From NCBI GenBank assembly GCA_029573725.1, contig JAKQDQ010000117.1, positions 1-64,000 on the forward strand: a DNA stretch of 64,000 nucleotides, read 5' to 3'. Origin of the DNA: Verrucomicrobiota bacterium. GTDB lineage: Bacteria > Verrucomicrobiota > Verrucomicrobiia > Limisphaerales > JADLHS01. Shown here piece by piece: positions 7,753 to 26,071 of this stretch (within the stretch, counting starts at the first letter, position 1; each line of letters starts with the position of its first letter). The notes under the pieces are model-generated. The model did no database searches. It was not told the DNA's origin and saw nothing but the letters and a program-made list of their open reading frames with translations. The position numbers were made by a program, and so were the translations under genes.

Positions 7753-8157
7753 ATGAGTGCAAACCCGATTCCCCGCATTTCAGAAACCGAGTGGGAGGTG
7801 ATGCGCGCCGTGTGGGCCGGCCACCCGGCCACCGCCAGCGAAATCATCGAACGCCTCGCCGCCGCCGATCCTTCGTGGCATCCCAAGACCGCCAAGACGC
7901 TGCTGGCGCGGCTTGTCCGCAAAGCGGCGCTGGACTACGAAGCGCAAGGCCGCCGCTACGTCTATGAACCGTTGGTGACGGAGCGGGAGTGTGTGGCCGC
8001 CGCCAGCGCCTCGTTTCTCGAACGGGTGTTTGGCGGCGCGTTGAAGCCGATGCTGGCGCACTTTGTCGAGTCGCGGCGGCTGAGCCGGGCTGAGTTGGCG
8101 GAACTCCGGCAATTGCTGGAACGTGAAACGCCAGAATCGAACCGGAGGAAGTCATGA
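7753..8157 (+). CDS. BlaI/MecI/CopY-family transcriptional repressor
   Basis: 134 residues with the family layout: an N-terminal winged helix (ISETEWEVMRAVWAGHPATA, then TAKTLLARLVRKAALDYEAQGRRYVYEP) and a C-terminal dimerisation helix bundle (about 85-130) that is the usual proteolysis target. In the classical system the membrane protease BlaR1 inactivates BlaI when an envelope signal is sensed. The gene overlaps the M56 gene by 4 bp (ATGA), confirming the pair. Twin operators lie directly upstream. Confidence 0.95.
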   Translation: MSANPIPRISETEWEVMRAVWAGHPATASEIIERLAAADPSWHPKTAKTLLARLVRKAALDYEAQGRRYVYEPLVTERECVAAASASFLERVFGGALKPMLAHFVESRRLSRAELAELRQLLERETPESNRRKS

Positions 8158-11100
8158 ACCTGGAACTTTATCTGACCACTCTGGGCCGCGTCTCGCTGCA
8201 AGCCGGAGTGCTGGTGGTCCTGGTGCTGGCGGTGCAATGGCTCTTCCGCAAACAACTCCCGCCCCGCTGGCGCTGTGCATTGTGGTTGCTGGTCGTCGTC
8301 CGGCTGTTGCTGCCATTTTCACCCGGCAGCGCGGCCAGCATTTTCAACCTGCTGCCTCGGTGGAAACCGATCGCTGTTGCGCCGGCCACCGCGCCGGGCT
8401 CGACCGTCCAATCTCCTTTGGTTTCTCCGCCGGTTGCCCGGCAGGATGGGGCTGGTCCGATCGTTGCGTCGCCGTCCCTGGCGCGCCCCGCTGTCGAAAC
8501 CGCAGTTACATCTCAAAATCAACCAACCTCCGCGCCGCGGATGGAAACCTCATCGCTTCCGGCATCTCCGTCGCAACCGGCGGCGCAGATTTCCTGGATG
8601 CGCTGGCTCTTTTGGATCTGGCTGTCAGGCGTCGCGGCTTTGACCGGTTACGTGCTGATCTGTTCTCTCCGGCTTGCCTGGCGGTGTCGGCGTTGGCGAC
8701 CCAACACCGACAGCGGTCTGCGCGCGTTGCTGGAGGAATGTGCGGCCCGATTGGAGGTCCGGTCCCGACTGGAAATCATTGAGAGCGCGGAAGTGTCGAG
8801 CCCGGCGCTGTTCGGCTGGTTCCGCCCGCGCCTGCTGCTGCCGGAAAATTTTGCCGCGAACTTCACACCCCAGGAACTGCGTTTCGTCTTCCTGCACGAA
8901 CTGGCGCATCTCAAACGGCGCGACCTGCCGCTCAACTGGCTCATCACGCTGCTTCAGATCGGGCATTGGTTCAATCCACTCATCTGGCTCGGCTTCGCTC
9001 GCTGGCGCACCGACCGTGAACTGGCCTGCGACGCCCTCGCGCTCGAAGCCGCCGGAGGCGATCAGAGTCGCGAGTATGGCCGCACCATCCTGCACCTGTT
9101 GGAACACTTCACCCATCGCGCCACCGCGCCGGGACTGGTCGGGATTCTCGAAGACAAGCGTCAGTTGCGCCAACGCATTCGCATGATTGCCAGCTTTCGC
9201 CCCGGCAAACGCTGGGGCGGACTTGCGCTGGCGTTGATCGTCGGACTGGCGGTGATTGGCTTGACCGACGCGCAAACTGCCAAGCCAGCGAAATCAACGG
9301 GTGGCGCGGATGGTTCCGGGAACAAGAGTCCGGCGGCGCAAGAGATGACACTCCGCACTGGGGCCGACCCGCAACCTGAGCCGCTCAAGCCAGGACTCGG
9401 GGTCCGGTCGCTTACGGTGACCGTGCTGGACCCTGACGGGAAGCCGTTGCCCGGCGCGGAGGTTTATGCGCCGCACCTCAGGAGATGGGATCAACCACAA
9501 GTCAAAGGTCTGACTGACACGAACGGCCAATTCATTCTGCGGTTTCCGGAGGCTCCCGAGTCATCCCGCCGCGAAATGAGTAACTTCGGTGTCTCGGCTT
9601 CCCACCCAAACTTTACCCAACGTGCCATGATGTGGACCTCGTCCGCGGGGGATGTCCATGCCGGGTTGCCCGAAGCGGTGACCATCAAACTCGAACGCGG
9701 CACGAGCATTGGCGGCACGGTGCGGGACCAACGCGGCGCGCCGCTCGCCGGCATCCGTGTGCTACTCTTCGGTTCCACCTACCGTGGATTCACCCTGGGC
9801 AACACGGAGCGGCTCGCGCATGAATACTCTGAATTATCCGAGCGTGATCCCCAATCCCCGGCCGCCACCACTGACGCTTCGGGACACTGGAGTTTTGATC
9901 GTTTTCCGTCCGACTTGCAAAAGGTCGAAGTCACGTTCGTCCGGCCGGATGATTCGCGAGAAGTATTTTCGACCGACGCGGACGACCCACTGAATCGTCG
10001 TCCCGTGGTGGCGCTTGCGGAACTCCAGGCGGGCATGGCCGTCACCCAACTCCGCGACGGCGTCACCGTGCGCGGACTCGTGGTGGACGAAACCGGTCAG
10101 CCGCTGTCGGGTGTCACGATCAACGAAGGTTACGGTCACGGCAACATCGTGCGGGTGGGGCAATTTACCAATGACGCCGCCGGCAAGTTCGAGCGGCCCC
10201 ATCGGGCGCCGCGCCAATGGATTTACACCGCGTCGCGCGCCGACCGCGCCACCACCTCGGTCGTCGCCCAGGTCGCACCCGGCATGGCGGAAGTGCGGAT
10301 CGTTTTGCCGCCCGCCAAACCTTGGACCGCGCGGGTCACCGACGAGTCCGGCCAGCCGCTCCGCGACGTGGAATTCCACATTGACCTCTACCGAACCCCG
10401 GCCCAAATCCTCGATTGGACCGGCAAGACCGATGAAGCCGGCCGTATCGTATGGAGCAATGCTCCGTTGCAAACCGTCACCGCCTACGCCAGTTCGCTCT
10501 CGCTGGGAGCGAACCTGAAAATCAAGCTCGCCGGTGGACAGCCGGAACAAACCATCGTTCTGAGCAAAACTGCCGCGCAAAAGATCCGTGTCCACGTCCG
10601 GGCCGTGGACGCCGGGACCCGCGCTCCGGTGAAAATCCAATCGGTGGCTGTGCGATTGGCGGGCGCGGCTCCACCCTTCAAGCCGCTGGCAACGCCGGAG
10701 CGAGGTGAATTCACCGGCGAAATTCAGCGGTCGGATTTCCAGGTTGGCATGTATCCGAGCTATCAGCTCAAGATCGAAGCCGACGGCTACGAGTCGCTCA
10801 TCACCGAATCCATTGACTTTGATTTCGGCCATCAGGATTTGGAACTCGCGCTGCACCGCACCACTGGCACCCGCGAACTCACGGTGTTCCAACCCGACGG
10901 CCAACCCGCCGCCGGGGCGCGGCTCTGGACGCGCGCCGCGCCGGACGATGGCAGCCTGTTCATCAACGCGCCCAATCGCTACTACGGCGATCGGTTGGAA
11001 AAGGAACAGGCCGATGCCGAAGGCAACCTCACACTCCCCAGCGTGCCGGCGGACGCTCCGGTCGTCATCGCGTACACCAACGGTTTCCTCGAAAGCCCCA

Positions 11101-12302
11101 TGAGTGATCTTCGCCGTTCGGGCCGGGCGCAGCTCGCTGCGTATGGCGTGGTCGAAGGTCGTTTGCTTGTTGCTGGCAAACCACGGCACGGGGTGAACAT
11201 CATGCTGACCACGCTGGCTTGGTCGCGAGAGATCGGGTACCACCTCAGTTACAACACTACGAGCGATGCGGAGGGGCGGTTTAGGTTCATGCAGGTGCCG
11301 CCAGGCACATTCAAGCTCTACCGTTGGGTACAACCCAAACACCGCGACACGTCGGGCATGCCCATCACCGAGACGTACCAGATGCCGATTGTCGTCGCTG
11401 CCGGCCAGACCAATCGTGTCGAATACTACACACCCGGTCGCGTCGTCACGGGGCAGGCGGTTCCGGCACCGGCCGATGTCGCGGTGGATTGGTTCAGGGA
11501 CATTCACACGCTCTCCCTCAGGTTGCCGATGGCGGCGACGCGCGGTCGCGTGAATCGGGAAGACTACGCCACCCTCGAGGCCTTTGCGAAAGCCAATCGG
11601 GCCTCTTATCAAGCACAGCAACAAGCGGACACTGCCCGCCGTGCCCGCACCTACGGTCTCACTTTCGAGTCCGACGGGTCGTTCCGCGTTGAGGATGTGC
11701 CCCCGGGCACGTACGAATTGCGCCTCCGCGTCACCAAGCCGGATGACAAAAACCGTCGCCATCAGTTCGGAGATGAACCGGAGCTTGGTTCGCTGGTTCG
11801 TGAAGTCGTCGTGCCCGAGGGGGATGGTCCGCTCGATCTCGGCACGCTTGCCGTGGCTTTCAAGGACGCGGCTCCGGTCAGGAGTTCGCCGCCGGTCAGT
11901 TTCCGCGCCGTAACTCTCGACGGCCAGCCGTTCACGCTCGAGAAGGTCAAGGGCCGGCATGTGCTGCTCGTCTTCTGGGCGGCGTGGTCCGAGCGCAGCC
12001 GGGAATTTTTCGCCACCCTGCAAAAGTTGCCGCCGCAATATGCTTCCGACCCACGCCTGGTTATCGTCGGGGCGAGTCTCGATGACCATCGGGATACGGC
12101 GCGGCAGATCGCGACCGCAGAGCATTTCAAGGGCACCCAAACCTGGCTCGACGCTGAAAGCCGGGCCAAATTCAGCGCGGAGTTTGACCTCACGACCCTG
12201 CCCGCCGTCTTTCTGCTCGACCCGGAAGGCCGCATGGCCGCCCGCGATCTCGAAGGCGAACGGCTTGCCACCACGCTGCACCGGGCTCTTGCCCGGAAAT
12301 AA
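8154..12302 (+). CDS. BlaR1-like M56 metallopeptidase fused to Ig-like repeats and a cysteine-less thioredoxin fold
   Basis: 1382 residues. Membrane segments lie at about 8-30, 40-55 and 150-171, then the zinc peptidase site HELAH (248-252) with Glu289 in DRELACD as third ligand, an amphipathic stretch, and a last helix at about 355-371. Residues ~400-1240 are a long exported-looking chain of carboxypeptidase-regulatory/prealbumin-like beta modules (DPDGKPLPGAEVY, DETGQPLSGVTI, DESGQPLRDVEF). Residues ~1250-1382 are a TlpA/redoxin-type fold, but the active site reads WAAWSERS: Ser1279 and Ser1282 replace the CxxC cysteines. M56 proteins linked to BlaI are sensors that cleave the repressor; the extra domains probably form the external sensing part (inference). 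Confidence 0.9.
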   Translation: MNLELYLTTLGRVSLQAGVLVVLVLAVQWLFRKQLPPRWRCALWLLVVVRLLLPFSPGSAASIFNLLPRWKPIAVAPATAPGSTVQSPLVSPPVARQDGAGPIVASPSLARPAVETAVTSQNQPTSAPRMETSSLPASPSQPAAQISWMRWLFWIWLSGVAALTGYVLICSLRLAWRCRRWRPNTDSGLRALLEECAARLEVRSRLEIIESAEVSSPALFGWFRPRLLLPENFAANFTPQELRFVFLHELAHLKRRDLPLNWLITLLQIGHWFNPLIWLGFARWRTDRELACDALALEAAGGDQSREYGRTILHLLEHFTHRATAPGLVGILEDKRQLRQRIRMIASFRPGKRWGGLALALIVGLAVIGLTDAQTAKPAKSTGGADGSGNKSPAAQEMTLRTGADPQPEPLKPGLGVRSLTVTVLDPDGKPLPGAEVYAPHLRRWDQPQVKGLTDTNGQFILRFPEAPESSRREMSNFGVSASHPNFTQRAMMWTSSAGDVHAGLPEAVTIKLERGTSIGGTVRDQRGAPLAGIRVLLFGSTYRGFTLGNTERLAHEYSELSERDPQSPAATTDASGHWSFDRFPSDLQKVEVTFVRPDDSREVFSTDADDPLNRRPVVALAELQAGMAVTQLRDGVTVRGLVVDETGQPLSGVTINEGYGHGNIVRVGQFTNDAAGKFERPHRAPRQWIYTASRADRATTSVVAQVAPGMAEVRIVLPPAKPWTARVTDESGQPLRDVEFHIDLYRTPAQILDWTGKTDEAGRIVWSNAPLQTVTAYASSLSLGANLKIKLAGGQPEQTIVLSKTAAQKIRVHVRAVDAGTRAPVKIQSVAVRLAGAAPPFKPLATPERGEFTGEIQRSDFQVGMYPSYQLKIEADGYESLITESIDFDFGHQDLELALHRTTGTRELTVFQPDGQPAAGARLWTRAAPDDGSLFINAPNRYYGDRLEKEQADAEGNLTLPSVPADAPVVIAYTNGFLESPMSDLRRSGRAQLAAYGVVEGRLLVAGKPRHGVNIMLTTLAWSREIGYHLSYNTTSDAEGRFRFMQVPPGTFKLYRWVQPKHRDTSGMPITETYQMPIVVAAGQTNRVEYYTPGRVVTGQAVPAPADVAVDWFRDIHTLSLRLPMAATRGRVNREDYATLEAFAKANRASYQAQQQADTARRARTYGLTFESDGSFRVEDVPPGTYELRLRVTKPDDKNRRHQFGDEPELGSLVREVVVPEGDGPLDLGTLAVAFKDAAPVRSSPPVSFRAVTLDGQPFTLEKVKGRHVLLVFWAAWSERSREFFATLQKLPPQYASDPRLVIVGASLDDHRDTARQIATAEHFKGTQTWLDAESRAKFSAEFDLTTLPAVFLLDPEGRMAARDLEGERLATTLHRALARK

Positions 12303-13872: not shown

Positions 13873-14490
13873 ATGACAAAACTCCTCGTCCTCTACTACT
13901 CCATGTACGGCCACATTGAAACCATGGCCAACGCCATCGCCGCCGGTGCCCGCGAAGCCGCCGGCGTCCAAGTCACCTTGAAGCGGGTGCCGGAAACCAT
14001 TGCAACTGAACGCGCGCAGGAATTGGGGGTGAAGCTCGATCAAATCGCCCCCGTGGCCGATCCCAAGGAGCTGGGGAATTACGACGCCATTCTCTTCGGC
14101 ACCCCCACACGCTTCGGCAACATGGCCGCGCAGATGCGGAATTTTCTCGATCAGACCGGCAGCTTGTGGGTCAAGGGGGGTCTGGTGGGAAAAGTGGGCA
14201 GTGTGTTCACCAGCACCGGCACGGGCGGCGGCAACGAAAGCACCATCATGAGCTTTGTGAACACCCTCATGCACCATGGCATGATCTACGTCGGGCTGCC
14301 GTACTCCTGTCCGGAATTGACCGATCTCAGCGAGATCCGCGGCGGCTCCCCCTGGGGTGCGGGGACGCTTGCCGGCGCGGACGGCACCCGGCAGCCCAGC
14401 GCGAAAGAACTCGCCATGGCACGGTTTCAAGGCCGGCACGTCGCCACCATTACCGCAAGACTGTGTTCGTATCCTGAAGAAAAACGGTAG
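13873..14490 (+). CDS. wrbA: NAD(P)H:quinone oxidoreductase, WrbA type
   Basis: 205 residues, the usual WrbA length. Flavodoxin fold with the FMN phosphate loop [12 protein letters not shown] (residues 8-19), the WrbA-type segment [20 protein letters not shown] (about 75-94), and the later [14 protein letters not shown] and GLPYS loops. It catalyses two-electron reduction of quinones with NAD(P)H, which avoids semiquinone radicals. It stands alone; neighbours on both sides are more than 200 bp away or on the other strand. Confidence 0.95.
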
Positions 14491-14857: not shown

Positions 14858-15487
14858 TTAGGGGGCCTTCATCAAATCTTCCGCCGTAAAGTAGCCGGAA
14901 TGATCCTTGATGCCAGCGCGGACGGCTTCCGCATGATCGGGTTTCACCACGCCCGGCAGCTCACCAAAATGGCGGCGCACGTAGGAGGCAATCGCCGCAA
15001 TCTTCGCTGATTTTTCCTTTTCGTCGCCCGGCAACGAGTCGCCCACGGCCAACATTGTGCCAGTATTGTAAACCTTGCCATTCACCGTGATCGGACCGGT
15101 CAACCCCCTGGAAATGAGCATGATCATCCGGTCGGGCGCCTCATGGTGAACCCATTCCGAATCAATCAACGGCGGGCAACCGTTGGCCGGGTTGCCCACG
15201 CCGGTTTCCATGTGACAAACCGCGCAATTCTCGCTGTACAGCTTTTTGCCGAAGGCGACGAAATTAGCATCCGGGTCACTGTTGGGCTGATACCGCGCCA
15301 GATCCGGCACCGAGCGATAGGGCGCATAAACCCGGGCATCGAACCAACCGCCGTACAGATCGAAATACCACGCGCCGAAAAACAACAGGACAAACAGCAA
15401 GGCCATCAGCCACACCGGAATGGCGGTCATGGTCACGGTGGGCTCGATTTCGCCCGTCCCGGTCGGTTGGGAAGTTTCAGTCTTCAT
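14858..15487 (-). CDS. Membrane-anchored monoheme cytochrome c
   Basis: 209 residues. One N-terminal membrane helix (about 23-45), preceded by a cytoplasmic tail, then a periplasmic cytochrome c domain with heme site CAVCH near residue 90 (FGKKLYSENCAVCHMETG) and a later MLAVGD stretch that could supply the axial Met. By position and size it resembles a one-heme CcoP or cytochrome c partner. It is the last gene of the ACIII operon and overlaps the CcoO-like gene by 4 bp (ATGA). Likely a carrier between ACIII and a terminal oxidase (inference). Confidence 0.88.
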   Translation of the reverse strand: MKTETSQPTGTGEIEPTVTMTAIPVWLMALLFVLLFFGAWYFDLYGGWFDARVYAPYRSVPDLARYQPNSDPDANFVAFGKKLYSENCAVCHMETGVGNPANGCPPLIDSEWVHHEAPDRMIMLISRGLTGPITVNGKVYNTGTMLAVGDSLPGDEKEKSAKIAAIASYVRRHFGELPGVVKPDHAEAVRAGIKDHSGYFTAEDLMKAP

Positions 15488-16356
15488 TTCGTGGCCACCG
15501 CAACGCCATTGGTCGCCGGCGCGGGGGGCGGAGTTACTGGCGATTCATACAACGGCGCATCCGCGCGCAGGCTCAGGAGATACGCCACCAACGCCTGCGC
15601 CTCCTCGGTGGGGACCACTTCGTGCCCGTCCGGCGGCGCGAATGTTCCCGACAGCGGCAACGCGTCAGGCGCCGGGGTTTTTCCGATTTTCCGTTCCACA
15701 AACAGAAAAGGGTAACCGGGCATGGTCGAATCCGGCACCACCGTTTTCGGCGCATACAAATGCAACAATTGCCATTCTGCACTCGCGCGCGTCGCGCCCG
15801 CGTCCGTCAGGTCCGGCCCGAAGCGACGGATGCCCGGCTGCACCACGGGATCGTAGAGATAATCCTGCGCCACGCTCCGGCGGCGTCCCCAACGCCGGCG
15901 GATGTCCGGACCGTCCGGCAAAATGGCAACCGTGGCTTCGCCGCCGGCTTCCGCAATCGCCGTGACCGCGTCATCCGCCAGCGCCGTATCCGCCACCTGC
16001 CCCAGCACCTGCGGCACGCTGGCCAAGGAGGCAGTTGCCGCCAGATGCGGAGCGGCTTTTTGAATGGCGCTGAGGACATTGGCGGCATTCGTTCCGACAC
16101 TCGTCAGCGTGACTTCCACCGTCGTGCCCTGCTGCCCGATTTGGCGGCTGTGGCAATAGACGCAACCGAGCGAGCGATAAACCTCCGCGCCCTGCCTCGC
16201 CTGTCCCGAACGCGCCACGGGATAAGCGTCTCCGGCAGGCACCGTCTTGGCCGCCTCCAGACGCCCCAGTTGCAATTGCGGCACCAGCACGAAGCCGGTC
16301 CAGGAAAAGGCCAGCGCGACAAACGCCGTGAGGAACACCAGGCTGCCGGATTTCAC
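15484..16356 (-). CDS. CcoO-like membrane-anchored cytochrome c
   Basis: 290 residues from a GTG start at 16356, which overlaps the stop of the CcoN-like gene (GTGA) and follows a good GGAGGTGA ribosome-binding sequence. One N-terminal helix (about 5-25), then heme site CVYCH in YRSLGCVYCHSRQIG, as in CcoO of cbb3 oxidases. A loop with MPGYPFLFVERKIG matches the family's conserved MPxYP Met-ligand region. A long insert of about 100 residues between heme site and Met loop contains Ala-rich sequence. The frame stays open far upstream of 16356, but there it is antisense-like shadow of the CcoN gene. Confidence 0.88.
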   Translation of the reverse strand: MKSGSLVFLTAFVALAFSWTGFVLVPQLQLGRLEAAKTVPAGDAYPVARSGQARQGAEVYRSLGCVYCHSRQIGQQGTTVEVTLTSVGTNAANVLSAIQKAAPHLAATASLASVPQVLGQVADTALADDAVTAIAEAGGEATVAILPDGPDIRRRWGRRRSVAQDYLYDPVVQPGIRRFGPDLTDAGATRASAEWQLLHLYAPKTVVPDSTMPGYPFLFVERKIGKTPAPDALPLSGTFAPPDGHEVVPTEEAQALVAYLLSLRADAPLYESPVTPPPAPATNGVAVATK

Positions 16357-17777
16357 GACTTCACCTCCACGGGTTGCCAGGCCAGCGCATCGGTCATTTC
16401 CCGCTTCAGCAGGGCGCGGTAATGGCTCAAAATCAGCCAGCCAACATTGGCCAAATACACCAGCGCTCCCAGCGCAATCAACGTCTCGCCCAGCGTGCTG
16501 ATCCGCACCCACAGCACGGCGGCGCGGGCGGTTTCCTGAAAGGGCACGGCGGCATCCGCCAGCCGTAATCCCTGCCGCACCCCGCCCGCCAGCAGTGGCA
16601 ACGCCAGCAACAAACTTCCCGGCATCGCAAGCCAGAAATGCGCGCGGACGCGGCGCGGACTGATCTCCCGGCCCGAAATGCGCGGCAGAATGTGATACAC
16701 TGCGGCAAACAGGGTCATCGCAAAGAAACCGTAAAGTCGCAACAGCACCTGCCCCTCCGTGAACCAGGTGAACTCCGTCACGCGCGCCATCACCGGACAG
16801 GCCGCCACCGCGGCGAGCAGCGTGGCCAGGATCAACATGAACGCCCCAAACTTGGCAAAACAAAGTACGCCGCCGAAGCAGGGCGGCTGGTCGCCGCCCC
16901 CGCTGGTTTTCACCACCAGGATCCCCAGGGCCAGCGCGGGCACAACCATTAACGCCGCGGCGGTGCTGCTGAAGATGCCCATCCAGGCCGGCAACGGCGC
17001 CTGCACCGGCATCCCCGTCCATGAACCGAACAGGGCCACGGTTACAAAAATGAACAGCGCCAGATAATAGCTGTGCAGCGGTTTGCCGCTGAGTTTCGGC
17101 AGCACATAAAACGTCACGGCCAGACCCGCCAGCGGCAGCCAGACGTTCAGCAGATTGCCCGCAAACCACCAGGCCACCGCCGCCTGCACCACGCCGCGCA
17201 CCGGATGCATTTGCAATAAGAACACCGCCGTGGAGAAAATCCAGATGAACCAGAAGACCGCCGCCAGGACAAACCATTGCGACGGATAAAGCCGGGGTTC
17301 CGCGCGCCAGGAAAAGGTCATGAACAGCCACACCGTCATGAGCATGAAGGCCAGAAATAAAATGACGGCGGCGTAACGCGGCAGTTCCAGCCACTCGAAG
17401 CCCGAACTGTCCCCGGTGACAATGCCCAGCAATCCCACCAGCACCCCGACATGCCATAATTTGGCGCCCACAGTAATCAAGGCCGGATTCATCGCCTTAA
17501 TCCGGCCCAGGCGCGCCAACAGCCACAACCCCGCACCCAGGGCGGTGGGAACGCCGAACCCATAGATGAACAAATGCGCCCAGGCCGGATAGGCCCGGCC
17601 AAAGGTAAGCACCGAACAACCCGCCAACAATGCCGGATTATGAAAGGTCATCGCCGCCGCCAGGCCGAACGCCGAGCTCAGTGCCAGCCAGCCGGCGGCA
17701 CCGCCGAACAGGGCAAACAAGGGCGAGCGGCACGACCGGTCAATCGGGCCGGGCGATGGAAGGGTAGTCGCGGTCAT
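16353..17777 (-). CDS. CcoN-like membrane protein lacking all heme and copper ligands
   Basis: 474 residues, about 12 membrane helices, alignable along its length with cbb3 oxidase subunit I: WWFAGN (203-208), YVLPKLSGKPLHSYYLALF (224-242), YHILPRISGREIS (361-373), VRAHFWLAMPG (377-387). Every catalytic ligand of CcoN is replaced. The low-spin heme His is Trp66, the CuB His of WWYGHN is Gly207, the CuB His pair of GPHHLHY is gone (GSWTGM at 251-256), and the heme His pair of GHVH reads GQVL (Gln343, Leu345). It cannot bind the heme b/b3-CuB centre in the known way. Intact frame, coupled start and stop, and conserved fold indicate a retained protein, probably a structural partner of ACIII or of the CcoO-like cytochrome (inference). 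Confidence 0.88.
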   Translation of the reverse strand: MTATTLPSPGPIDRSCRSPLFALFGGAAGWLALSSAFGLAAAMTFHNPALLAGCSVLTFGRAYPAWAHLFIYGFGVPTALGAGLWLLARLGRIKAMNPALITVGAKLWHVGVLVGLLGIVTGDSSGFEWLELPRYAAVILFLAFMLMTVWLFMTFSWRAEPRLYPSQWFVLAAVFWFIWIFSTAVFLLQMHPVRGVVQAAVAWWFAGNLLNVWLPLAGLAVTFYVLPKLSGKPLHSYYLALFIFVTVALFGSWTGMPVQAPLPAWMGIFSSTAAALMVVPALALGILVVKTSGGGDQPPCFGGVLCFAKFGAFMLILATLLAAVAACPVMARVTEFTWFTEGQVLLRLYGFFAMTLFAAVYHILPRISGREISPRRVRAHFWLAMPGSLLLALPLLAGGVRQGLRLADAAVPFQETARAAVLWVRISTLGETLIALGALVYLANVGWLILSHYRALLKREMTDALAWQPVEVKS

Positions 17778-17795: not shown

Positions 17796-18182
17796 TTATT
17801 CAAAGTCACTGGGCGGCGGCGGCGGCGGCGGCGGCACGTAAAAGGCCTTTTCCACCCGTTCGAGCAAAATCGCCCGGGCCTGGGCGGGGTTTTGCCATTG
17901 GCGCTCGGCCAGCCTCATGGCTTCGGCAATGGGCAGACGGACGATGCCCTTGGCTTGATCCACCCAGCCCACATGGTTGAGGGCCTCGGCCTCCGCACCG
18001 CGCAATTCGGCCAGCGCCGCGGCGCGTTCGGCGGCGCGGTGGGCGTCCAGCGGAACGGGGGTGGTGTATTGCCGGGTCTTCCACACGAGCGCTGCGAAAA
18101 TCAGGCAGGCGCCTACCACCGCGAGGATGCGGGGCAAATTCTTGCCGCAACCGTGTCCTTCAGATTCGTAAGCCTCGTCCAT
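17796..18182 (-). CDS. Small single-helix membrane protein with polyproline tail, ACIII operon
   Basis: 128 residues. One membrane helix (about 18-35: LPRILAVVGACLIFAALVW), then an Ala/Glu/Arg-rich helical region (45-110) and a C-terminal run of eight prolines before SDFE. The region around VGWVDQAKGIVRLPIAEAMRL resembles short membrane proteins encoded beside ACIII and caa3/cbb3 genes, but I cannot name a family. Its ATG overlaps the actF stop (TGATG), and the CcoN-like gene starts 18 bp downstream. Probably an accessory subunit. Confidence 0.75.
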   Translation of the reverse strand: MDEAYESEGHGCGKNLPRILAVVGACLIFAALVWKTRQYTTPVPLDAHRAAERAAALAELRGAEAEALNHVGWVDQAKGIVRLPIAEAMRLAERQWQNPAQARAILLERVEKAFYVPPPPPPPPSDFE

Positions 18183-19474
18183 CAGTTGGTTCCTCCGGTG
18201 CGCGCCGTAGCCCCTCCCAGTCCGCTCCCGGAAGCGGCCCCGCCGACCAGCGGCGCATGGTACAAGCCCATCGCCTCAATCAGGCGCGGGTCTTTTTGTG
18301 GGAAGGGTGCGGTGCGATGAAACTCCTTCAAAAATTTCAACATCAGGACTCCGATCATGCCGGCCGTCAAACCCAGGGCCACCACGCCCCACCCCACCGG
18401 GAAGCCGGCACGAAAATGCGGCGGAAACACGCACCAGATCATGTCCACGAAATGCATCAATCCGGACCACAGCGCCAGCGGGACCATGATGGCGAAATTG
18501 CTTTTCACATCAATCCGCAGCAGGGCCAGGAACGGCAGGAAGAAGTGGCCGAAAATAATCACCATGCCCACCCAGAACCAGCTGCCCTTTTCGCGCACAA
18601 CGAAGTAAAAGGTTTCCTCCGGCATGTTGGCGTTCCAGATGATGAAATATTGCGAGAAGGTGACATAGGCGTAGAACACCGTGAACGCCAGCAGCAACGA
18701 CCCAAGAAAGTAGTATTGGTGTTCATGCAGGACATCGGAAATGATCCCCTGCCGGTCCAGAATCATCGTGATCACGTAAACCACCGCCAGGGCCAGCCAG
18801 ACGCAACCGGCGAAATAGTAAACCCCGTACATGGTGGAAAACCAGGCCAGCTCCAGTGCCTTCATCCACATGATCGCGCCGAAGGTCAGCGAAAAACCGT
18901 ACAGAAAAATCCCGATGCTCGCCGTCACCCGCAGCTTGTGCGTCCAATGCGCGGCCCCGTCCTGATCCTGACTGACCGACAAGGCCCGCAGCCGCCAGGA
19001 CAGGAACCAGAGGATGGCCAGCGTCCCGACCGAGACGAGCCAGAAACCGGTTGTGGTGAAGACAGGTTGTTTGGCGTGCAGCGCATGATTCAGCTGCGGA
19101 TTCCAGCTCAACCACGGATAAATCTTTTTGGCGAAGATCCCGATCGGGAGGAAGAATCCCGGCGCCAAACTGAAGACTGCGACGGAAAGATGCTCGCAGA
19201 ACCGGCGGATGGGCACCGACCAGCCGGCATCAAACAGGTGATGCACCAGCACCAAAAACAACGCGCCAGCCCCCAGGCTGAGCAGGAACATGAACGCGAC
19301 CACATACGCCAGCAGAAAACTGGTGACGGCTTTCCCCGCCGCGGCCGCTCCGAGCCCGATCAACCCGATGAGCAGGCCTCCGGCGATCAACTGCAGCGGC
19401 AGGTGGCGCCAGCGCGCCAGATTCAGCGGCCGGGCAACCGGATCAACATTGGAAAATTCGTCTTGTTGGCTCAT
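18182..19474 (-). CDS. actF: Alternative complex III membrane subunit ActF
   Basis: 430 residues with about ten membrane helices; NrfD-superfamily polytopic subunit, homologous to ActC but shorter, matching ActF (quinol:cytochrome c oxidoreductase). Recognisable stretches include MHFVDMIWCVFPPHF, HEHQYYFLGSLLLAFTVFYA and FSQYFIIWNANMPEET. The start at 19474 (MSQQDEF) was chosen because it is 4 bp behind the actE stop; an in-frame ATG at 19528 lies inside actE. Together with ActC it forms the membrane core of ACIII, which oxidises menaquinol. Confidence 0.93.
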   Translation of the reverse strand: MSQQDEFSNVDPVARPLNLARWRHLPLQLIAGGLLIGLIGLGAAAAGKAVTSFLLAYVVAFMFLLSLGAGALFLVLVHHLFDAGWSVPIRRFCEHLSVAVFSLAPGFFLPIGIFAKKIYPWLSWNPQLNHALHAKQPVFTTTGFWLVSVGTLAILWFLSWRLRALSVSQDQDGAAHWTHKLRVTASIGIFLYGFSLTFGAIMWMKALELAWFSTMYGVYYFAGCVWLALAVVYVITMILDRQGIISDVLHEHQYYFLGSLLLAFTVFYAYVTFSQYFIIWNANMPEETFYFVVREKGSWFWVGMVIIFGHFFLPFLALLRIDVKSNFAIMVPLALWSGLMHFVDMIWCVFPPHFRAGFPVGWGVVALGLTAGMIGVLMLKFLKEFHRTAPFPQKDPRLIEAMGLYHAPLVGGAASGSGLGGATARTGGTN

Positions 19475-19478
19475 ACGC

Positions 19479-20123
19479 TTACTGAAGTTTGGCCCGCAAT
19501 TCCGGCGCAAGATCGTCCACGCTGCCAAGCCGGCTCAGTTGCAGCGCCCGCAAATAACCGGTGATCGCCCAGCGATCGGGGACGGCAATTTGTGACGCAT
19601 ACCCCTGCATCACGCCCTTGCCCTGGCTGATGACGTGAAAAATTTCCCCGTCGGTGAATTCGACGATGCGTTTGTCGTGCAAATTGGCGACCACGGCCAT
19701 GGCTCCGATTTTTTTGGTGATGCCCGTGCCTTCCCCGGTCCGGCCGTGGCAGGGAGCACAATAGATGTTGAACTCGCGCTCGCCGCGGGCCAGGAAGCCG
19801 CCCGTGATCGGGAAGGGATTGAGCGCAATGAAATTGGTCGAGCCGGTTTGCCGGCCGGTATTCACCGGTGCGTCCTCAAACGAATACACCGCCCGGCCTC
19901 CCACGGTCAGCGGCTGTTCCTGGGCGATGGTCCCCTCCGGCGGCAGTTGCGAACTGAAGCCATTGGGAAAAAAGCCGTTGGCCGTCTGCGGCCGCAACTT
20001 GGCCTGCCGCTTCATGTCCGGGAAGATCTGCATGGGACGATTGCGCGAGAGATCGCCGCGCCGTCCGGCAATCAGCACCACGCCCAGGATGAGGATGCCC
20101 AAAGTGATGATAAAGTAGCGCAT
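19479..20123 (-). CDS. actE: Alternative complex III monoheme cytochrome c ActE
   Basis: 214 residues: N-terminal membrane anchor or signal (MRYFIITLGILILGVVLIAG) and a cytochrome c domain with heme site CAPCH (FNIYCAPCHGRTGEGTG) and a probable axial Met in GKGVMQGYASQI. ActE carries electrons out of ACIII to soluble or anchored cytochromes. The segment PLTVGGRAVYSFEDAPVNTG before the heme is typical of ActE. Start codon overlaps the actD stop by one base (TAATG). An upstream extension of the frame to 20561 is inside actD and is not used. Confidence 0.93.
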   Translation of the reverse strand: MRYFIITLGILILGVVLIAGRRGDLSRNRPMQIFPDMKRQAKLRPQTANGFFPNGFSSQLPPEGTIAQEQPLTVGGRAVYSFEDAPVNTGRQTGSTNFIALNPFPITGGFLARGEREFNIYCAPCHGRTGEGTGITKKIGAMAVVANLHDKRIVEFTDGEIFHVISQGKGVMQGYASQIAVPDRWAITGYLRALQLSRLGSVDDLAPELRAKLQ

Positions 20124-20662
20124 TATTCCTCCACCATTTCGATGCGCTTGCTGCCGGCCGCCTCGAGCAGTTTGCGGGTTTCCGTCTCGGAATACTTGGG
20201 GTCGGAGGTTTCGATCACCACGAAGAATTTGTCGTGCGTCGCCAGCGCGAACCGCCGGTGTTTCAGCAGGGGATGATGCAACTTGGGCAGGCGGTTCAGA
20301 AACAACATCCCGCCCAGCGCCCCGAACGCGCCGAACAGAATCGTCAATTCGTAGGAGGGCGGAAACGCGCCAAACGGACTGAACATCGGCTTGCCGCCGA
20401 TGAGAATGGGGTAGTCCACCGCGTTCATCCACCAGATCATCAGCATGCCCGTGGTGTAGCCGGTGACTCCGCCCAGAAACGCGAACCAGCCCACCTTGGA
20501 ATTTTTCACGCCCATGGCGCGATCCATGCCGTGGATGGGAAACGGGGTGAACACGTCCCATTTGCGGAAGCCGGCGTCGCGGATTCTTTCCGCGGCGTGC
20601 AGTACCGTCGGCGTCGTGTCGAATTCAGCCAGAAGGCCAAAGGCTTTTGCGTGGGTGCTCAT
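20123..20662 (-). CDS. actD: Alternative complex III subunit ActD
   Basis: 179 residues. Soluble N-terminal part (FGLLAEFDTTPTVLHAAERI, KWDVFTPFPIHGMDRAMG), then two membrane helices (about 55-80 and 100-125) and a soluble tail with HDKFFVVIETSDPKY. This is the two-helix DUF3341 layout of ActD. The start at 20662 was chosen because it overlaps the actC stop by one base; the frame upstream runs antisense-like within actC. Required for assembly or proton pathway of ACIII in known complexes. Confidence 0.93.
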   Translation of the reverse strand: MSTHAKAFGLLAEFDTTPTVLHAAERIRDAGFRKWDVFTPFPIHGMDRAMGVKNSKVGWFAFLGGVTGYTTGMLMIWWMNAVDYPILIGGKPMFSPFGAFPPSYELTILFGAFGALGGMLFLNRLPKLHHPLLKHRRFALATHDKFFVVIETSDPKYSETETRKLLEAAGSKRIEMVEE

Positions 20663-22080
20663 CAAGAGTGTCCTCCGGTCGCGCCCGCCTCGGGATGATG
20701 GGGGTCCGCCTGGGGCGTGACGCCCTTGATTTCCGAGACGGCAATCATGGGGAGAAAGCGCATGAACAACAAAAACAGCGTAAAGAACAAACCGAACGTG
20801 CCCAGATAGGTGCAGACATCCACCCAGGTCGGCTTGTAGTAATCCCAACTGGACGGCAGGAAATCCCGGTACAGGCCCACCACCACGATCACGAACCGCT
20901 CAAACCACATGCCGATGTTCACAAAAATTGAGAGGATCCAGACCACGACCAGGTTCTGGCGGATCTTCTTGAACCAGAACAACTGGGGCACGAGCATGTT
21001 GCAGCTCATCATCATGACCCAGCCCCACCACATCGGGCCCAGCGCGCGGTTCATGAAGTGAAACCGCTCCATCGCCGAGCCGCTGTACCAGGCGATGATG
21101 AATTCCATAATGTAGGCATAACTGACAATGCAACCCGTCGCCAGCGTCACTTTGCACATCACATCAATGTGCCGTTTGGTGATGATGTCCTCCAGGTGGC
21201 ACATGCTGCGCAGCGGGATCAGCAGGGTGAGCACCATGCCGAATCCCGAGAAGACCGCACCGGCCACGAAGTACGGCGGAAAGATCGTGGTGTGCCAGCC
21301 CGGCAGCTGGGAGACCGAAAAGTCCAGGGACACGATGGAGTGTACCGACAGCACCAGCGGGGTGGAGAGTCCGGCCAGGATCAAATAGGCCTTTTCATAA
21401 TTGCTCCAGTGCCGGTTGGAGCCCGTCCAGCCAAAGGAAAACAGCCCGAAAAGAAACTGCTTGAGTTTGGTCTTGGCGCGATCGCGCAGCATCGCCAGGT
21501 CGGGTATCAGTCCCACGTACCAGAACAGCACCGAAACGGTGAAGTAGGTGGAGACGGCGAACACGTCCCACATCAACGGGGAACGGAATTGCGGCCAGAG
21601 CCCCTGGTAGGTGGGAATCGGAAACAGCCACCAGTCAAACCAAACACGGCCAACGTGAATCGCCGGATAAATGCCCGCGCACATCACCGCAAAAATGGTC
21701 ATGGCCTCCGCGGCGCGGTTGACGGCCGTCCGCCACTTCTGTCGCAACAGGTAGAGGATCGCCGAAATCAGCGTTCCCGCGTGGCCGATGCCGATCCACC
21801 AGACGAAGTTGACAATGTCCCAGCCCCACATCGTGGGATGCTGGTTGCCCCAGACCCCCACGCCGGTGGCAATCTGGTAATACAACATGGCCCCCAGCAA
21901 CCCCAGCAGACAAAGGCTGGGCACAAAGGCCGCCCACCACCATTTGGGGGTCTTCCCCTCGGTGACGGCGCTGACGCGGTCCGAGATCCAGCCGAAGCTG
22001 CGTTGGTTGGCGACCAGGGGCTCCCGCATCAACTCCAGCGGAGTGGCGGGCACTTTGGTGTGCGTGGCAACTTCAGACAT
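20662..22080 (-). CDS. actC: Alternative complex III quinol-oxidising membrane subunit ActC
   Basis: 472 residues, about ten helices, NrfD/PsrC family. Typical ActC text: [87 protein letters not shown] and [19 protein letters not shown]. The HAGT and DFS/PGWH regions belong to the quinol site in solved ACIII structures. The ATG overlaps the actB stop by one base. The longest-conserved member of the operon. Confidence 0.95.
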
Positions 22081-25000
22081 CAGTGCGCTCCTTCCGGGCT
22101 CCCGGCGCTGGAATGTGACGAGGTTTCACTGTCTCCATGCAGAAAAGGGTTTCCATTCTTTGATTCAAACTCCTCGAACGTAAACGGCGCCTCCGTGTAA
22201 TCGGGCATGGCCGGATTCGGGTTGCGCACCTTGGCCAGATACGTGGTGCGCGGCTTGGTCTTCAAGAAGTCCAGCACCGTGTAATTGCGCTGCTGCGCCT
22301 TGAGTTTCGCCACCCGGCTGTCCGGGTCGGCAATGTTGCCGAAGACAATCGCCCCCGCCGGACAGGCTTGTTCACAGGCGGTCTTGATGACCCCATCCGG
22401 CACGACCACGTCGCCCGATTCGCCCGCTTTGACCTTCTGGGCGATCTTCGCGGCTTCGATGCGCTGCACGCAGAACGTGCATTTTTCCATCACGCCGCGC
22501 ATGCGCACCGTGACGTCCGGATTCTTGAGCATGCGGATCAAATCCCACTCCTCTTCCGAGCGCATGCCGGATTCCGGGTTGCGCCACCAGCGTTTCAAGT
22601 CCCACTCGTCGTCCGTGGTGTGCAGCAGTGCGGTGGCGTAGAACGGGCCTTTCAACTCCGACAGCGGGCGCTTGTTGTAATCCAGATAATTGTACCGGCG
22701 CACCTTGTACGGGCAGTTGTTGGAGCAGTAGCGCGTGCCCACGCACCGGTTGTACACCATCACATTCAGCCCCTCGTGGTCATGCACCGTGGCGTTCACC
22801 GGGCAGACATTTTCGCAGGGGGCCGCCTCGCAGTGCTGGCAGAGCATCGGTTGATTGACCGCCTGCACGTTGTCAATCCACTCGTTGAATTGCTGATCCT
22901 GATCGCGTTTGTACGTCTCGTCCTTGAACCATTCGCCCCAGGTGTGCTGCCGGGCACTGGCGGAGAAATACCGGTCAATCCGCATCCATTGCATCTCGCG
23001 GCCCCGGGCCACCAGGTCCTTGCCCACGATGGGAATGTTGTTTTCCGCCTGGCAGGCGATGACGCACGCGCTGCACCCCACGCAGGTGTTCAAATCAATC
23101 GCCATGCCCCACTGGTGCAGCTTCGAACGCCGTTTGGGATCGTCGAACGGATTGGGATACATCGGCGATTCGTCCGGCGCCTCCGGCGCGTTCATCCTCT
23201 GCGCGAAATCCGGATGCGCCTTGAACTGCTGCAAATTGGCCTCCCGGACAATCGCCCGCCCTTCCATGCTCCAATGAGTCTGGGTGCAGGAGATGGGATA
23301 CTTGTGCCCCAGTCGCCGCACTTTGGCCCCGGCGGCGAGATAACCAGTCCGGCTGTGCAGCAGTGGGTAGGCGTCAAAACCCGCCCCCAGACCAACCCGG
23401 CCCGCCTTGCGGCGCCCGTAGCCCACGGCCATGCCCAGTGAGAAATCCGCCATGCCGGGCTGCGTCCAAATCGGTCCAACCACTTTCCGGTCGCCAACCG
23501 ACACTTCCACCACCTCGTTGTTTTGCACTCCCAGTTCGCGTGCCGTCTTGCGACTCACCAGGATCGCGTTGTCCCAGGTGATCTTCGTGACCGGATCCGG
23601 CAACTCCTGCAACCAGCCGTTATTGGCGAACCGACCGTCATCCACCTTGGCATCCCGGTAGAGGATGACTTCCAGGTTCTCCTTGCCGGCCACCGTGCCG
23701 GCCGCGCCGCTGACCGCTTCCCGGAGCACCGCGGCCTCCAGACTGGCGCGGACCGGCTGCCACGCAGTGCCCGCGGCGAACCCATCATGGAGAAATTTGT
23801 TCCAGGCGGCCTCGGAGGCGTCCCCCGTGAGGCCGGCAAACGTCGCGCGCACGATGCGGTGCGGATTGGTTTCCGGCAACCCGGCGAGGCGCGACAAAAA
23901 TTCCAGGTCCGTCACGCCGCCAAACAACGGCGCAATCAACGGTTGAATGGGCACCAAAGTGCCATCATTGGTGCGGGCGTCGCCCCACGATTCCAGATAA
24001 TGCGCTTCCGGGAAGTGCCAGTCGGCCTGCTCTCCCGTTTCATCCTCGTAATAGCCCAGGCGCACGACGGTCCCCGCCTTGCGTTGCGCGACCGCCCAGT
24101 TCAAATCCGCCGGCGCGTTGTACACTGGATTGGCGCCAAGGATGGCCAGGGTTTCCACTTCGTTGCGCTGCAGCGACTGCGCCAGCTCGCCGAGTCCGGC
24201 GAAAGGGGTGGCCGGCACGGCAACCAGCTCCAGCGTCTTGCCGATCGCCCCGAGTTTTTCGTTGATTGCAGCGGCGAGCAGATGCGCGGCCAACGGTTGC
24301 CCCACGCCCACGACCACCAGCGCCCGGCCCGCGTTTGCCTGCAAATCCCTGGCACATTCCGAGATCCATTTCGGGTCCACCTGTGACCTGGCCGTTGCCG
24401 CCAGATCGCCCGCGTCAATCCCCAGCTCCGCCGCGAGCGCGGCCGCAACGGGCAGAACCAAACCCGCCGGGACGCGCAACCGGTGATCGGCGTTCATGCC
24501 GGTCACGGTAAACAGCGATTCCACCACGTAGAGCCGGTTTAACTTGTCGTCGGGTGATGAGATTTTGCGGCGGCGGGTGAACTTGCGGATGCTGCTGAAG
24601 GCTTCATCTTCGTTCCCCAAAAAATCGCAATCGAGCGACAGAATCGTGTCGGCCGCGTCATAATGGAAAACCGGACGCACGGGCCGGCCAAACGCCCGGC
24701 TGGCGGCACGCTGGGGGAGGTCCGCGTCAATCGCGTCATACCGGTACCATTTGGCCTGCGGCAATTTTTTGCTGATTTCCAGTTGCAGGCGCTGCCGGGA
24801 GGGGGAGTGGCTGTGCTCCACCAAAATCGCCAGCCCCTGTCCCTGGTTCGCGCCAAATTTGCGCGCCTGCCCCGCCAAAAATTCCGTGGCCTCACTGGCG
24901 GTCACCACCGCGCGGTTCGCGCCGGCGCCCTTGGCAAAGCGCATGGCCCGATCCGGGTCGTACAAATTCAAAATCGACGCCTGCGCAAATTGATCCGTGC

Positions 25001-25406
25001 CGCCATTGCCGCCAGGAAACTGCGGATTTCCCTCCAGCTTGATGGGCCGGCCTTCGTACGACTTGGCGACGAGAGGAACGGCCCCGCTGCGTGTCGGCAT
25101 GGCCGTGGCGAAGTATTGGGAGGTGCCGTGGGTGTAATTTTCCGGCGCCCTGCCAAACGGCATCAGCTTGTCCTCGGGACGGCGGCAACCCGTGGTGCCC
25201 AGGCCGATGCCGGCCAGTGCCAGGGAGGCCGACATGATTTTGACAAAGTGACGCCGGGAAACCGGATCGGAAAAATCATCGGAATTCGCGGGAAATTCCC
25301 GCTCGAGGAACTCCTTGAACTCGGGAGTTTCGGACAATTGCTCCAATCCGCGCCAGTAATGGCGGCCGGACTGGAGTTGACGCGCGGAAGCAGGAGGGGT
25401 TTTCAT
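22080..25406 (-). CDS. actB: Alternative complex III iron-sulfur protein ActB (fused MopB-like and FeS domains)
   Basis: 1108 residues. An N-terminal twin-arginine-like segment ([16 protein letters not shown], Arg51-Arg52) ends in a lipobox-like TTGC cysteine. Residues ~70-720 are a molybdopterin-oxidoreductase-like fold that, in known ActB, binds no molybdenum. Residues ~765-1060 carry the ferredoxin-like domain with four cysteine clusters: [12 protein letters not shown] (near 774), [26 protein letters not shown] and CTFCVQRI plus CEQACP. Electrons from quinol pass through these clusters to the cytochromes. The start at 25406 overlaps the actA stop (ATGA); an in-frame ATG at 25520 lies within actA. 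Confidence 0.95.
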
Positions 25407-26071
25407 CGGTGGCAGGCGGAACAGTTGTTCATGGACTCGATGCGAAAATCGTGGACGTATTTTTTGCCGAACGCCTCCTGCCGCTTGGCGGCTTCGTTCG
25501 GATCTTCGCTGGGAGTCCAACCGAGATCGGTGATTTTATCCGCCGGACGCACTTTCGAGGCCGGATCATTGTGGCAATCCAGACAGAACGACATGCTCAA
25601 TGATTTGGCGTGATACACCTCCTCCATTTGATCCACGCGCCCGTGGCATTCCACGCAGCTGATGCCGCGGTTCACGTGAACGGAGTGGTTGAAATACACG
25701 AAATCGGGCACGCGATGAATTTGCACCCACGGAATCGGTTTGCCGGTGGCCGCGCTCTCCCGCACCAGGGCCAGCCGCGGATCATCCTTCAACACCTGAT
25801 TGTGGCAGTTCATGCAGGTGGAGCTGGAAGGGATGTTCGAAAACCAGGATTTCTCAACCGTGCTGTGGCAGTAGCGGCAGTCCATGCCCAGCTGGCCGGC
25901 ATGCGTGGCGTGGGAAAAGGCCACCGGTTGGATGGGTTGATAGCCAACTCGAAAATATTTGGGCGTGAAGTAATACCACACTCCCGCCGTGACAGCCCCG
26001 GCTGTCAACGTGCCGCCTATGATGATCATCAACGGCAGCTTATTGGTCCACTTCGGAAAAATGGCTGACAT
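25403..26071 (-). CDS. actA: Alternative complex III pentaheme cytochrome c ActA
   Basis: 222 residues with one N-terminal helix (about 12-32) and five heme sites: CRYCH, CMNCH, CVECH, CLDCH and CSACH, the last only two residues from the C-terminus. Five hemes and this length are standard for ActA. Other His residues (HATHAG, IHRVPDFVYFNHSVH) fit distal axial ligands. It is the first gene of the ten-gene minus-strand operon ending at 14858, all of whose junctions are overlapping or shorter than 20 bp. Confidence 0.95.
   Translation of the reverse strand: MSAIFPKWTNKLPLMIIIGGTLTAGAVTAGVWYYFTPKYFRVGYQPIQPVAFSHATHAGQLGMDCRYCHSTVEKSWFSNIPSSSTCMNCHNQVLKDDPRLALVRESAATGKPIPWVQIHRVPDFVYFNHSVHVNRGISCVECHGRVDQMEEVYHAKSLSMSFCLDCHNDPASKVRPADKITDLGWTPSEDPNEAAKRQEAFGKKYVHDFRIESMNNCSACHR

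Follow-up and report, generated by a model that had tools for sequence, protein, structure and literature searches.

Why does the alternative complex III (ACIII) operon of a Verrucomicrobiota bacterium end in genes resembling those of a cbb3-type oxidase, and what role could the oxidase subunit I play there if the residues that bind haem and copper are gone? The question is posed by the DNA presented above, a stretch of 64,000 nucleotides to which we refer as the window. The original prediction placed in it a homologue of CcoN that had lost all its haem and copper ligands. The reading frame has exactly the coordinates first given for it, and it is on the minus strand (Table 1). We call its product N, and the products of the two genes behind it O and P. 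Copies of N that lack the ligands are termed gutted, and copies with all six ligand histidines intact.

In the window, the gene order is ActA, ActB, ActC, ActD, ActE, ActF, Small, N, O, P. The presence of the ActA-F set in order identifies the locus as an ACIII operon; ActF was named from its position and its conservation in the ACIII operons of other phyla. The whole arrangement, from ActA-F through Small to P, is kept in nearly all fetched loci. The stop of N overlaps the GTG start of O by 4 bp, and O overlaps P by the same length. Both cytochrome c partners of a cbb3 oxidase, CcoO and CcoP, have counterparts in O and P, with one CxxCH motif each; canonical CcoP is usually di-haem. Small has no match in Pfam or NCBIfam and is conserved in most relatives. 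At L121, L136, L142 and other loci of family f64, Small went undetected, an extra cytochrome-c-like ORF takes its place and the axial Met of O is a Cys. Inspection by eye of the surrounding DNA revealed a BlaI-like regulator (7753-8157), followed by a 1382-aa ORF (8154-12302) with what looks like an M56/BlaR-type N-terminal part, carboxypeptidase-regulatory-like repeats and a thioredoxin-like end. A WrbA/flavodoxin-like quinone oxidoreductase (13873-14490, also assigned by eye) is convergent with the ACIII operon.

Table 1. Genes of the ACIII operon in the window, in order of position.
Feature	Position	Strand	Remarks
P: membrane-anchored mono-haem cytochrome, CcoP-like	14858..15487	-	CxxCH and Met145 invariant in the family
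O: CcoO/FixO-like mono-haem c-type cytochrome	15484..16356	-	GTG start; CVYCH, Met212
N: CcoN-like subunit, 474 aa	16353..17777	-	without the six haem/copper ligand His and the active-site Tyr
Small: 128 aa, one apparent TM helix	17796..18182	-	between ActF and N
ActF	18182..19474	-	start by eye: first Met of ORF 18182-19528
ActE-like mono-haem cytochrome (CAPCH)	19479..20129	-	start approximate
ActD	20123..20662	-	start by eye
ActC, NrfD-like quinol-oxidising membrane subunit	20662..22080	-	
ActB, molybdopterin-type/iron-sulfur subunit	22080..25409	-	start by eye
ActA, multihaem cytochrome c	25403..26071	-	

The claimed homology with CcoN was borne out by profile matches and by structure prediction alike. 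N matches the COX1 family (PF00115) in Pfam with an E-value of 7e-38 and the NCBIfam ccoN model with an E-value of 1e-25, its 90 bits falling far under the curated cut-off of 583. Matches to CcoN chains in the PDB extend across ~375 residues. The structure predicted by AlphaFold from a 36-sequence alignment (pLDDT 94.2) superimposes on P. stutzeri CcoN (3mk7) with a Z-score of 48.4, at 1.9 Å over 443 residues; NO reductases (Z 40-42) and A-type oxidases (Z ~35) score lower. N therefore has the subunit I fold of the C-type (cbb3) haem-copper oxygen reductases, and it has invariant structural residues (G60, G73, G126, P133, F244, P263, W265 and G430). It resembles CcoN (3mk7, 8smr) in fold, in PF00115 membership and in having CcoO- and CcoP-related partners. 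In contrast to CcoN, it lacks the six metal-ligand His and the active-site Tyr, is only ~20% identical and sits with other ACIII-linked N proteins in a clade of its own.

The ligand columns, read in the numbering of 3mk7, are altered throughout, as the original prediction had stated. His60 and His347, the ligands of the low-spin haem b, are replaced by W66 and L345, and the haem b3 ligand His345 by Q343. At the positions of the CuB ligands His207, His257 and His258, N has G207, a Pro and a gap, the pair of histidines falling in a motif that is shorter by two residues (GSWTGMP--V). The cross-linked active-site Tyr251 is a Gly. Together, the alignment columns and the superposition on 3mk7 lead us to conclude that the fold of CcoN is kept while its active site is gone. 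The same alignment shows six of six His in the canonical cbb3 CcoN or fused CcoNO of related genomes, so a misplacement of the columns, which could have overturned the claim, is not what we see. The ligand set is missing in all fetched members of the genus and family, and in almost the whole order. Read frameshifts or assembly errors, the other way in which the histidines could have been hidden, are rejected as the source in view of the number of independent genomes with the same loss. We also looked for a conserved set of alternative ligands (His, Met or Cys) in the pockets of N and found none, and hidden ligands are rejected on this ground: the replacements vary between members without a conserved substitute. 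One His, His46 close to the end of helix 1, is shared by 76% of the order, but it stands alone. From its sequence, N would be expected to be haem-free in vivo.

The gutted subunit is not confined to the window. N has a match in 83 of 96 relatives, a few of these being canonical CcoN only. Across 388 surveyed genomes from the phylum, the N-O-P slot of the ACIII operon was found throughout the order of the window and in much of the class. ACIII-type N is gutted in 132 genomes, intact in 30, and present in both forms in one, so that the ligand-less paralogue, along with its CcoO-like cytochrome, recurs in ACIII operons. The number of ligand His per protein is 0-3 or 6, and never 4-5; intact copies keep Tyr251 as well. 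Intact N occurs even within the order of the window (L190, L191, L269, L271 and L272). Beyond Verrucomicrobiota, where our view is a sample of loci found through ActC, the matches listed include one ACIII-linked N of this clade, an intact copy in a Gemmata-labelled MAG (L234).

Several loci depart from this simple division. In family f67, His60 and His347, which form the low-spin haem b pair, are the only ligands left. ACIII-linked N with these two His but without the b3 and CuB ligands is seen at L126, L078, L081, L199, L201 and L203. Such proteins possibly represent a half-way state and, to judge by the retained pair, may still carry one haem b. Genome G050 carries two N-O-P cassettes, one intact (L272) and one gutted (L073), the intact one at a contig end that cuts off any ACIII genes beside it. 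In Chthoniobacter flavus Ellin428 (L220), N is spread over two reading frames, reflecting a frameshift, a sequencing error or decay. At L116-L118, in the Opitutaceae-like family f66, a stand-alone intact CcoN on its own long branch is followed by an ORF that matches both the CcoO and the CcoP models.

How did both forms come to occupy the same slot? Intact and gutted ACIII-linked N form a single clade (support 100) apart from canonical cbb3. On host trees of ActB and ActC the two states interleave, with 7 and 10 unordered changes, or 18 losses if regain is barred. The O tree tracks the hosts and requires 6 changes, and the N tree, on which most gutted sequences group together, requires 3. Parsimony gives no proof of the direction of change; we assume that it ran from intact to gutted, the joint recovery of six His and a Tyr being improbable. 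In related lineages an intact CcoN occupies this position of the operon, so what was lost would be a real oxidase site, and it was probably lost repeatedly. At least three independent losses is the safest statement, and there were probably more. Part of this pattern has a rival explanation, compatible with any function of N, in which two ancient cassettes were swapped between operons. The clustering of most gutted sequences on the N tree and the presence of both forms in G050 would fit such an exchange, as would L125 and L155, where N is 36% identical and ActC 94% in close hosts. However, long branches can pull gutted N sequences together, and the O tree, which is free of ligand sites, sets gutted next to intact operons in line with their hosts. 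L126 and L127 are gutted, yet group with intact N, and holding all gutted N as one clade is rejected (p-AU 0.003). We therefore regard cassette exchange as unlikely to account for the mixed states, though it merits consideration ahead of the other alternatives discussed below.

A second alternative is that N has no function and is a decaying remnant carried between needed genes. Its ligand columns are unconstrained, its branches are long, dN/dS reaches about 0.7 in some comparisons and the C. flavus copy is split across two frames. Against this stand the frames of N, which are open in 132 survey genomes, its invariant structural residues, and its retention after several independent ligand losses. 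In addition, dN/dS from simple Nei-Gojobori counts, with many other dS values near saturation, is 0.15-0.19 for close Methylacidiphilum pairs, 0.10 for L174/L176, 0.15 for L179/L182, 0.19 for L146/L149 and 0.29 for L167/L180. Intact N pairs with measurable dS give 0.075-0.157. In close pairs, gutted N is thus under purifying selection (dN/dS 0.10-0.29), and decay is an improbable explanation. The partner cytochromes are likewise maintained. CxxCH is found in O in 94 of 94 gutted operons and in P in 95 of 95 (105/105 and 106/106 when intact operons are included). The axial Met of P is invariant. That of O is kept in 80 of 105 operons and is a Cys in 17; all 25 operons without it are gutted, which suggests that the electron-transfer role of O may differ among lineages.

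Could N instead serve ACIII in energy conversion while carrying no haem, either by translocating ions or by binding quinone? Its multi-helix membrane fold is intact, and proton pumping by ACIII is a matter of debate (PMC8498564). On the other hand, N has no conserved acidic or basic residue in a buried position, Tyr251 is lost, and the charged residues that are conserved (D13, R17, R61, R89, E131, R158, R194 and K/R232) are placed by the model at helix ends or in loops, all of which makes such a role rather doubtful. Least probable is that N assists in the assembly or regulation of a canonical cbb3 oxidase encoded at another locus: fused CcoNO (720-850 aa) does occur in many of the genomes surveyed, but the genome of the window has gutted N and no canonical CcoN that we could find, no clear canonical CcoN was seen in Methylacidiphilum, and the synteny is with ACIII.

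We are close to certain that N is conserved as a subunit and is non-catalytic. The retained subunit that was originally predicted is supported by the synteny, the open frames, the purifying selection, the ligand loss itself and a separate oxidase. This oxidase is encoded on another contig of the same genome, where an intact aa3 oxidase comprises ctaD, ctaE, ctaC with a CuA motif, and Sco. This genome also has a NorC/NorB-like pair, and it gave no match for cytochrome bd. Of the genomes with gutted N in the order survey, only five lack a second PF00115 match. An A-type ctaD directly follows P in Methylacidiphilum, families f64, f69 and f77 and some others; in many gutted operons, including those from the order of the window and from the Opitutaceae-like f66, none was seen directly downstream. 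Three gutted genomes that are at least 93% complete (G026, G051 and G079) have cytochrome bd and no other haem-copper oxidase that we could find, which implies that the acceptor is not always an A-type oxidase. At L074 (2515-8448), CRISPR-Cas-like genes, a helicase and its neighbours, were noted by eye beside the aa3 oxidase genes.

With moderate confidence, and on the evidence of the genes, we propose that N-O-P acts as an electron outlet of ACIII in which N is the holder. A C-type (cbb3) oxidase would have been incorporated into the verrucomicrobial ACIII operon to form an ACIII-oxidase unit. N would then have shed its sites for low-spin haem b, haem b3 and CuB in the lineage of the window, and repeatedly elsewhere, leaving a haem-free multi-helix platform that holds O and P beside ACIII. 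Quinol electrons would pass from ACIII via ActA/ActE to O/P and on to a separate acceptor, in most cases an A-type aa3 oxidase. N-O-P would be physically part of ACIII, in keeping with the synteny and gene overlap. Docking of ACIII to the CcoO-like cytochrome or to a true oxidase, as first surmised, would be the best-supported role of N.

The ACIII-aa3 supercomplex of Flavobacterium johnsoniae was reportedly described by Sun et al. in 2018. In ACIII-caa3/aa3 superoperons and in this supercomplex, as cited in PMC8498564 and PMC8361435, oxidase genes follow ACIII and electrons pass from ACIII to the oxidase; in N-O-P operons, by contrast, a C-type cassette whose subunit I is non-catalytic comes in between. 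The ACIII-adjacent gene of Methylacidiphilum is annotated and discussed as a cbb3 oxidase (PMC6688271, PMC8498564, PMC11102522), and the accounts of this cbb3, in their available portions, make no mention of missing ligands. In M. kamchatkense Kam1, the co-location of ACIII with the cbb3 oxidase has been tied to a high O2 affinity (PMC6688271). The 'cbb3' beside ACIII in Methylacidiphilum and Opitutaceae, as presented in PMC6688271 and PMC8498564, consists of the same genes in the same slot as N-O-P. The copies fetched from Methylacidiphilum and from records titled Opitutaceae, Opitutus or Cephaloticoccus lack the ligands, although several Opitutaceae-like f66 genomes keep the six His. In Kam1 (L105), the six ligand columns of N read S, E, S, H, F and V. 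The other PF00115 proteins of Kam1 are two long A-type-like ones, one of 568 aa and one of 472 aa, the last being probably the NorB reported in PMC6688271. In M. caldifontis, the ACIII genes enclose a nos cluster (PMC11102522), which agrees with ACIII feeding several acceptors. The original prediction knew of no description of this subunit. The gene itself had been discussed, as cbb3 in Methylacidiphilum, and here the statement falls; it holds for the missing ligands, as our literature search, chiefly of freely readable papers, found no published description of a ligand-less CcoN.

The description of the Methylacidiphilum gene as part of a cbb3 oxidase thus needs revision. The high O2 affinity of Methylacidiphilum has been tied to an ACIII-adjacent cbb3 (PMC6688271) whose subunit lacks the haem b3 and CuB residues. 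Family-level annotation will count gutted N genes as oxidases in genome and metagenome surveys, and published genomes already do so. The genes also form a large natural set of haem-copper oxidase subunits in which fold and partners have survived the loss of all cofactor ligands. Since intact sisters occupy the same slot, the set amounts to a natural experiment on what in an oxidase still matters after catalysis ends. For Verrucomicrobiota, our findings suggest an ACIII with a built-in cytochrome outlet. It is fairly likely that the complex is larger here than is known, comprising ActA-F together with Small, N, O and P, and that a former subunit I would now serve it as a haem-free structural component, having arrived there through repeated, parallel loss of the active site.
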